NCBI RefSeq assembly: GCF_031348265.1
Contig: NZ_CP133771.1
Coordinates: 1,798,001-1,862,000 of the forward strand
From: Streptomyces collinus
Lineage (GTDB): Bacteria; Actinomycetota; Actinomycetes; Streptomycetales; Streptomycetaceae
Reading direction: 5' to 3'
DNA length: 64,000 nucleotides
In this document: positions 17,768 through 63,220 of the stretch, piece by piece
How the letters are laid out: each line of letters opens with the position of its first letter
Position numbering within the stretch: the stretch's first letter is position 1
Made by a program: the position numbers and the translations under genes
Notes under the pieces: generated by a model
The model's input: only the letters and a program-made list of their open reading frames with translations
Database searches by the model: none
Told to the model about the DNA's origin: nothing

Positions 17768-17843
17768 CGAATGCGGGTGCGCGGGGGGGTGCGCCGGGGA
17801 TGCCGCACCCCCACTGTCGGTGGTGACTGGCACCATCGAAGCC

Positions 17844-61874: not shown

Positions 61875-62355
61875 CCGGCTCCCGCTCCTGGACGTCGTGC
61901 TCGTCAAGGCGGGCCGTACGAAGATCCGTTACACCGGCGAGCTGCTGACGGACGACGGCACGCGCCTGGCGGTCCGCGCCGCCTGGGCGGGCTCCGGCGT
62001 CCGCGACTTCGGCTTCGTCCGCTTCGAGCCCGGGGACGTCTTCACGGAGTACTACTGGCGCGACCGCTGGTACGCGATCAAGGAGGTCCGCTCCGCCACG
62101 GGCGCGCTGAAGGGCTGGTACTGCGACATCACCCGCCCCGCCGTGCGTTCCGGGCCGGAGCTGGTCGTGGAGGATCTCGACCTGGACCTGTGGCGCTCGG
62201 CGGACGGCCTGGACGTACGGCGCCTGGACGAGGACGAGTTCGCCGAGAGCGGCCTCGCCGAGACGGATCCGGAGGCGGCACGGGCCGCCCTGGCCGCGCT
62301 CGACGAGCTGGAGTCACTCGCCCGCGGCGGCGACTTCACCGCACTCCTGGCCTGA
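61855..62355 (+). CDS. DUF402 domain protein (nucleoside diphosphatase-like)
   Basis: 166 residues. DUF402 core: FTEYYWRDRWYAIKEVRSATGALKGWYCDITRPA, with acidic DLDLDLWRSADG forming a metal site. Related proteins bind Mg2+ and hydrolyse nucleoside di/triphosphates or bind RNA. Start ATG 61855 lies inside the GNAT gene. The 3' end overlaps the convergent methyltransferase gene by 42 bp. Confidence 0.9.
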   Translation: MSANSADRLPLLDVVLVKAGRTKIRYTGELLTDDGTRLAVRAAWAGSGVRDFGFVRFEPGDVFTEYYWRDRWYAIKEVRSATGALKGWYCDITRPAVRSGPELVVEDLDLDLWRSADGLDVRRLDEDEFAESGLAETDPEAARAALAALDELESLARGGDFTALLA

Positions 62356-62946
62356 CGTCCGGACCTGCGCGATCACCGCGTACCGCTCGTCCGTCACCTC
62401 CCTGCCCCACAGCGACGGATCGCCCGACAGCCGCTCCAGGCGCACCGGCGCGGCGACCGGGGCGAGGAGACCGGTGAGCCGCTCCGCCGGTATGCCGACG
62501 GGGGCGGCGCTTCCCCATACGCCCTCGATCAGAACGAGCCGCCCACCCGGCCGCAGCAGGCCGCACCAGTGCCTGAGGGCGCGGCCGGGGTCGGGCAGGG
62601 CCCACAGGACGTGCCGGACGAGCACGGCGTCGAAGCGCTGCTCCCCGACCGGCGGTGCCGCGGCGTCACCGACCAGGAACACCGCGTCACGCCCGGCGAG
62701 TTTCTCCCTGGCGAGCGTCACCATCGCCGCCGAGAGGTCCACGCCCGTCACCCGGTGTCCCTGCTCGGACGCGAGGAGCGACAGGCTTCCGGTGCCGCAG
62801 CCGAGGTCGAGGACGTCTCCCGCCCGGGCGGGCAGCCAGTCGCGCAGCCGCCCGGCCCAGGCACGGCGCACCTCGGGGTCGCGCAGGCCGTGGTCCGGCT
62901 CCTCGTCGAAGGAGGCGGCCTCGGCGTCCCAGTCCACGTTCGTCAT
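62314..62946 (-). CDS. Class I SAM-dependent methyltransferase
   Basis: 210 residues from ATG 62946. Motif I VLDLGCGTGSLSLLASEQG, motif II VTGVDLSAAMV, and a post-I FLVGDAAAPPVGEQRFDAVLVRHVLWALPD are visible. The substrate is unknown. Upstream are two tandem TGTCAGTG motifs, each followed 8 bp later by CAnnnT. The nearer -10-like box ends only 8 bp before the ATG, so a leaderless transcript is possible. Confidence 0.88.
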   Translation of the reverse strand: MTNVDWDAEAASFDEEPDHGLRDPEVRRAWAGRLRDWLPARAGDVLDLGCGTGSLSLLASEQGHRVTGVDLSAAMVTLAREKLAGRDAVFLVGDAAAPPVGEQRFDAVLVRHVLWALPDPGRALRHWCGLLRPGGRLVLIEGVWGSAAPVGIPAERLTGLLAPVAAPVRLERLSGDPSLWGREVTDERYAVIAQVRTSGQECGEVAAAGE

Positions 62947-62953
62947 GGGCCCA

Positions 62954-63002
62954 AGAGTGACACCCGCCACTGACACTCGAATCGTGACTGCCGCCACTGA
63001 CA
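62954..63002 (-). promoter_or_regulatory. Two tandem TGTCAGTG promoter motifs before the methyltransferase gene
   Basis: On the minus strand TGTCAGTG occurs at 63002-62995 and 62975-62968, 27 bp apart. Each has CACGAT or CACTCT exactly 8 bp later. The form matches, apart from one base in the -10, the RecA-independent damage promoter TGTCRGTG-N8-TAnnnT that PafBC uses in mycobacteria (from memory). Confidence 0.55.
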
Positions 63003-63085
63003 GACCAGGAGCGATGAGTAACCCTCCCCCGAAAGGTCTACCTCCGTGAGAACGCGGAACCCGGTAGACCCTTAAGGAGGCAGCC

Positions 63086-63220
63086 ATGCGCCGTGTGACC
63101 GTGCAGAAGCCCCTGAAGAAGACGGACGTCCGCCGGGTCCGCGACGAGGCCGACGAGCGCCCCGCCGGGCGCCCCGAGGTCCGCAAGGACATCGCCCGCA
63201 CGTGGTGGCCGGACGCCTGA
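63086..63220 (+). CDS. 44-residue small protein
   Basis: ATG 63086 with a strong aaggagg 6 bp upstream, ending at TGA 63220. The sequence starts MRRVTVQKPLKKTDVRRVRD and ends RKDIARTWWPDA, with no membrane segment. Dense charge and a Trp-Trp near the end are unusual. It could be a short regulator or a peptide precursor. No modification genes are obvious, apart from the divergent methyltransferase. Confidence 0.6.
   Translation: MRRVTVQKPLKKTDVRRVRDEADERPAGRPEVRKDIARTWWPDA

Follow-up and report, generated by a model that had tools for sequence, protein, structure and literature searches.

In Streptomyces collinus, the sequence TGTCAGTG occurs twice, a short distance upstream of a gene for a putative methyltransferase and in the same orientation as the gene. 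The original prediction was that these are tandem PafBC-like promoters of the DNA damage response, and that the inner one may give rise to a leaderless methyltransferase mRNA. The question raised by this locus is whether the two sites belong to a genuine promoter class and, if so, which regulator reads them and what kind of transcript they would produce. Positions below refer to the window, that is, the whole stretch of 64,000 nucleotides that was analyzed, unless the genome is named. The features at the locus are as follows.

62314..62946, minus strand: class I SAM-dependent methyltransferase of 210 aa (PF08241, E = 1.6e-23)
62944..62946, minus strand: start codon ATG, and predicted transcription start of a leaderless mRNA
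62954..62975, minus strand: putative proximal RecA-NDp/PafBC-type promoter, TGTCAGTGGCGGGTGTCACTCT, an exact motif match kept in orthologues; it consists of TGTCAGTG (62975-62968), an N8 spacer including a TGT extension (62962-62960) and the -10 box CACTCT (62959-62954)
62981..63002, minus strand: putative distal promoter copy, TGTCAGTGGCGGCAGTCACGAT, an exact motif match; it includes TGTCAGTG (63002-62995) and the -10 box CACGAT (62986-62981)

A pattern scan of the window found both copies to match TGTCRGTG-N8-YANNNT with 0 mismatches, which bears out the description from which we started, namely twin motifs 27 bp apart, each followed after 8 bp by a CAnnnT hexamer. Each copy thus has its own 8-bp spacer and its own -10 box, and both boxes start with C, where the published consensus has T. 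The proximal -10 carries a TGn extension that is absent from the distal -10 in this strain (AGT instead). The gap between the proximal -10 and the ATG is 7 nt, and no Shine-Dalgarno-like word was found in the 20 nt upstream of this ATG. When one mismatch was allowed, the window contained six matches (mean over 100 shuffles 1.46, with one shuffle also reaching 6), a result that by itself tells only moderately against chance. No Rfam match was obtained between 62900 and 63300 up to E = 1.

Far stronger figures were obtained from the genome (8.87 Mb, single contig), which was scanned with the same pattern and, as a control, with the pattern read backwards. TGTCRGTG-N8-YANNNT had 116 exact matches against 3 for the reversed pattern, and the TGTCAGTG form with the 8-bp spacer had 74 sites against 0. 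The spacing was rigid, with one match of the TGTCAGTG form for a 7-bp spacer and none for a 9-bp spacer, and the TGTCTGTG-N8 form had no match in the genome. The motif sites are therefore not due to chance. A fixed spacing between a box and the -10 is a signature of promoters.

Ninety of the 116 sites were examined with 3 kb around each, comprising all 74 TGTCAGTG sites and 16 of the 42 TGTCGGTG sites (six of the 16 chosen for a TA-type -10). Among 73 TGTCAGTG loci (the 74 sites minus the distal methyltransferase copy), the -10 was CA-type in 30 and TA-type in 43. The CA-type sites include those of dinB, polA, dnaN, holB and an Lhr-like helicase, and C looks tolerated as the first base of the -10. 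The TGn extension was found in 12 of the 30 CA-type boxes and in only one of the 43 TA-type boxes (P-value = 4.4e-5, Fisher test). This association would fit real -10 elements, as if the extension offset the weaker first base. Eleven of the 12 TGn-CA sites show the leaderless layout described below. Besides that of the methyltransferase there are 11 such sites, one of them before polA; eight of the other ten were scanned for protein families, which gave five genes outside classical repair (mycothiol-S-transferase, Rv2175c-like, DUF6924, NADAR and ferrochelatase) and three without a family match. The TGn-CA subclass may be regulated or tuned separately from the main class. One more class site with this extension lies in the window, in the TGTCGGTG form.

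17815..17836, plus strand: second class site in the window, TGTCGGTG-N8-CACCAT with TGn extension

Seven nt beyond this site, an ATG (17844) opens a 254-aa protein with a partial BKACE match. Elsewhere in the genome, a divergent motif pair (5441496 and 5441569) lies between two genes, one of which encodes an AAA_5 ATPase.

Downstream of the class sites, 68 ORF candidates were collected and 40 of them were scanned against NCBIfam. Replication or repair names were given to 22 of the 40, a share that is biased upward by selection, as 20 ORFs were taken nearly in genome order (4 skipped; 9 of 20 named) and 20 were partly picked as repair-like (13 of 20 named). The named proteins are ung, dinB, RarA-like, ruvC, Hel308-like, uvrC, uvrA, uvrB, polA, dnaE, dnaX, dnaN (two), holB, radA, pcrA, UvrD-like, Lhr-like, recA, YoaA/DinG, nth and recQ, with the TGTCGGTG form preceding RarA-like, ruvC, uvrC, nth and recQ. 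Fourteen of the 22 pass the curated cut-off of at least one model; among the eight below it, uvrA, polA and pcrA are genes cut off by the 3-kb loci, and RarA-like, Hel308-like, UvrD-like, Lhr-like and YoaA/DinG are assigned at family level. A scan for the motif near known damage genes had been suggested as a check on the original prediction, and such sites were indeed found before recA, uvrA/B/C, polA, dinB, ung, radA and recQ. Pfam added O6-methylguanine-DNA methyltransferase, an ECF sigma factor, a NADAR protein, mycothiol-S-transferase, ribosomal protein S6 and others. The ECF sigma factor, which has an NTF2 domain and lies behind a class motif near 5550472 of the genome, may extend the damage response.

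The short distance between the proximal -10 and the ATG is shared by much of the class. An ATG or GTG occurs 6-9 nt past the -10 at 44 of the 73 TGTCAGTG loci (mean 8.2 and maximum 16 in other 4-nt bins), with 26 loci at exactly 7 nt, and a Shine-Dalgarno-like word is present at just 4 of the 44. In the TGTCGGTG form, the same layout was found at 10 of 16 sites, a share biased by the TA-type picks. The published share of leaderless genes is about 20-21% in S. lividans and in S. coelicolor (PMC6742748). At 44/73, the class reaches nearly three times this figure (binomial P-value = 4e-13 against 0.21), although the published share was measured and ours is predicted from the layout. Chance would account for about 8 of the 44, and after their subtraction about half of the sites remain leaderless in layout. 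The conserved RecA protein probably does not begin at the GTG 7 nt past the -10, and an ATG 43 nt past it is the likelier start; recA, which is counted among the 44, may thus be leadered, and a few of the 44 genes, recA included, may really start at codons further along. Three other genomes of this genus, with 54, 61 and 99 motif sites, contained 25, 42 and 59 matches, respectively, to the motif with a start codon 6-9 nt behind it (these are counts of matches, in which one site may appear twice, and they have no distance control). We found no description of a class-wide leaderless layout in the open literature searched.

Conservation was analyzed in 90 orthologous sequences of the genus, our own gene included, of which 30 came from a search of 150 genomes (partial and weaker matches left out) and 60 were others. 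TGTC[AG]GTG was present within 200 nt upstream in 79 of the 90. Where identity was 70% or more (59 orthologues, counting our own gene), the proximal element was present in all 59, and 58 of them had an in-frame ATG at a distance of 6 or 7 nt from the -10, with no start found at any other distance. Together with the genome-wide layout, this supports the earlier suggestion of a leaderless mRNA. In a collection of named Streptomyces loci (the best 80 of 509 relatives, whose species overlap with the 90 and which are not independent of them), the motif was found in 78, all 78 with the ATG at 6 or 7 nt, and was absent within 200 nt of the match in 2. The first residues of the protein vary far more than the spacing between -10 and ATG, as judged by eye.

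These data also bear on the simplest alternative, that both sites are extended -10 promoters of the housekeeping sigma, from which the gene is transcribed constitutively, with little contribution from TGTCAGTG. Extended -10 promoters can work without an activator, the TGn extension is present in 59 of the 59 close orthologues, and the five TGn-CA sites before genes outside repair could be read in the same way. However, among the 31 orthologues below 70% identity the exact element is kept in 20, with the ATG at 6 or 7 nt in 18 (in one of the 20 the element is 160 nt away, without a fitting ATG), and the other 11 have a version with 1-2 mismatches in its place, as seen by eye. A decorative element would not persist in this way. 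The rigid 8-bp spacing across the genome and the TGn-CA form shared by polA likewise speak against a constitutive promoter, which we regard as unlikely.

If TGTCAGTG is read by an activator, PafBC is the obvious candidate. Adjacent pafB- and pafC-like genes are present in the same genome. The best PDB match of the PafB-like protein is 7p5x_AY (E = 2.8e-55, filed as transcriptional regulator-like protein) and that of the PafC-like protein is 7p5x_AX (E = 8e-50, filed as PafC), and each protein matches the half of 6sj9 that corresponds to it. Mycobacterial PafBC works through a TGTCRGTG-type motif (PMC6789036, PMC8223512, PMC11804915), and the sigma-adaptation mechanism of those promoters is presumed to be alike here (PMC11804915, PMC6789036). 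Together with the genome-wide class and its repair genes, the rigid spacing and the conservation in orthologues, the gene pair supports the PafBC-like identity first proposed for the motif.

Another factor, either a damage-response ECF sigma or a second WYL regulator, might read TGTCAGTG instead; the ECF sigma gene noted above itself lies behind the motif, and the genome has 11 WYL-domain matches. With the A of the ATG taken as +1, TGTCAGTG would span about -29 to -22, too near for sigma region 4 at -35 but rightly placed for the contact of PafB at -26 (PMC11804915). The centring at -26 holds if the ATG is +1, as the peak of start codons at 7 nt across the genome suggests. The repair genes downstream of the class sites also fit the PafBC regulon (PMC8223512). 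An ECF sigma is thus disfavoured by geometry as the reader of the motif, and a factor other than PafBC appears improbable overall.

The duplication itself is rare in this genome: among the 74 sites, the methyltransferase pair is the only same-strand TGTCAGTG pair less than 100 bp apart, and the tandem pattern has one match. Across 101 genomes of the genus, the tandem pattern gave 27 matches in 23 genomes, 19 of them at the methyltransferase gene by position and 8 elsewhere (2 of these overlapping). Of the 59 close orthologues, 46 have another TGTCNGTG no more than 70 bp away, as does one of the 31 distant ones, so the weight originally placed on the duplication is only partly justified. The conserved core consists of the proximal promoter, fused to the start codon, and the distal copy, largely confined to close relatives, would most simply be a later addition. 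It could be argued that the tandem is a cooperative direct-repeat operator of an unrelated regulator rather than two promoters, as the copies are 27 or 28 bp apart in 39 of the 46 two-copy orthologues. This we consider very improbable, because spacings of 38, 40, 50, 51, 61 and 63 bp also occur, 13 of the 59 close orthologues lack another copy within 70 bp, a separate -10 follows each copy, and single copies prevail in the genome. Control by LexA is the least credible of the alternatives, as there is no convincing SOS box in the methyltransferase promoter region: between 62801 and 63200, the best two matches to CGAACNNNNGTTCG, which we take to be the LexA consensus, still have three mismatches, even though 175 LexA binding sites are tied to damage-responsive genes in S. 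venezuelae (PMC9380542).

We therefore favour the reading, with a probability of roughly 0.8, that both sites are RecA-NDp/PafBC-type promoters driving a leaderless, damage-inducible methyltransferase gene. The methyltransferase would then probably belong to the DNA damage response, as a predicted member of the LexA/RecA-independent regulon. In the mechanism taken from PMC11804915, DNA damage would produce single-stranded DNA that is bound by PafBC, and the PafB-PafC pair would dock the housekeeping RNA polymerase on TGTCAGTG near -26, replacing the -35 contact. The polymerase would melt the C-type -10, assisted at the proximal copy by the TGn extension, and transcription from the A of the methyltransferase ATG would give a leaderless mRNA. 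The distal copy would act as a second promoter with its start about 27 nt upstream, yielding a leader that has no Shine-Dalgarno sequence; this copy would probably strengthen expression without being essential. Joint occupancy of the two promoters would not be expected, because one polymerase would presumably cover both.

The promoter class is already known in Streptomyces, and the methyltransferase gene is a new predicted member of it. The motif was reported earlier in S. coelicolor and S. avermitilis, with related motifs upstream of 67 S. coelicolor genes (PMC2375139). The RecA-NDp promoter of S. rimosus recA, TTGTCAGTGGC-N6-TAGggT, has the same -26 element including the following GGC, and the same spacing, in the same genus (PMC2375139), and this promoter (TTGTCAGTGGCN6TAGggT) is UV-inducible (PMC2375139). 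Its -10 starts with T, whereas those of the methyltransferase start with C, and the passage on the recA promoter mentions no tandem arrangement (PMC2375139). The macrodomain gene SCO6735 of S. coelicolor, a damage gene outside the classical set, also has a conserved RecA-NDp promoter upstream (PMC5087735), and it shows a 5-fold rise after UV (PMC5087735). It encodes a different enzyme; the passages on its promoter mention no tandem copies, and the word leaderless does not occur in the text (PMC5087735). The methyltransferase as a class member, and its tandem promoter, were unreported in the literature searched, the 67-gene S. coelicolor list (2008) lying outside that search; a literature search for a methyltransferase named in Streptomyces damage transcriptomes yielded no useful result.

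In S. venezuelae, an initial search suggested that the PafBC motif of M. smegmatis is not conserved (PMC9380542, 2022), and because of this suggestion the paper did not settle whether a PafBC-type damage response exists in Streptomyces. The motif, though doubted for that species, is clearly present in the genus. In a sample of 149 genomes of the phylum (a sample that need not include mycobacteria), a count confined to TGTCAGTG-N8-YANNNT among the motif forms gave 54, 61, 74 and 99 sites in four genomes of the genus (controls 0-3) and 0-6 sites in each of the other 145. With 54-99 sites in each of four genomes, one of which was examined for spacing and repair genes, the PafBC question becomes directly testable, and the class yields a list of unexpected candidate members such as the methyltransferase. 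The presence of the motif in the genus and the class-wide leaderless bias are the most interesting by-products of the analysis.

This bias leads us to a further and only tentative idea, that the RecA-independent damage regulon is largely leaderless and preferentially translated by the leaderless route, with the methyltransferase, its promoter doubled, as a strongly driven member that carries out a new protective or signalling methylation. If this were true, the start codon would be fused 6-9 nt from the promoter at half to 60% of the regulon promoters, compared with 20-21% of genes, and initiation factors or the state of the ribosome could adjust the damage response as a unit.

As for the enzyme itself, PF08241 is matched with 83.5 bits (cut-off 21.2), and among the 25 best of 51 matched NCBIfam models none reached its cut-off. 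The AlphaFold2 model (mean pLDDT 80.4, from a 12-sequence alignment) has the Rossmann-type, standard class I methyltransferase fold, and its nearest solved folds are UbiG, TleD, RebM and similar proteins (TM about 0.6, about 20% identity). The fold and the SAM-binding domain are in common with UbiG (4kdr), UbiE-like proteins, TleD, MitM and RebM, but identity to the UbiG/UbiE-like and natural-product enzymes is only about 20% in the fold matches. Pfam, NCBIfam, PDB sequence and fold searches gave generic class I matches only. Because the enzyme resembles UbiE/UbiG-like and natural-product methyltransferases, our weak guess would be a small molecule or another non-DNA target as substrate. With a threshold of E <= 1e-30, 46 of 65 genomes of the genus contain the protein, compared with none of 15 genomes from other genera of the order, and the best 80 of its 509 relatives in the named collection are all Streptomyces records.

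Upstream of the tandem sites there is a divergent 44-aa ORF (63086-63220, plus strand), preceded by aaggag and without a Pfam match. In the motif scan of the named loci, it adjoins the methyltransferase in 34 of 80, in two of them as a shorter piece. An inverted repeat, GGTCTACC / GGTAGACC, was seen by eye at 63035-63070, upstream of this ORF, and the block around it looks conserved in many orthologues.
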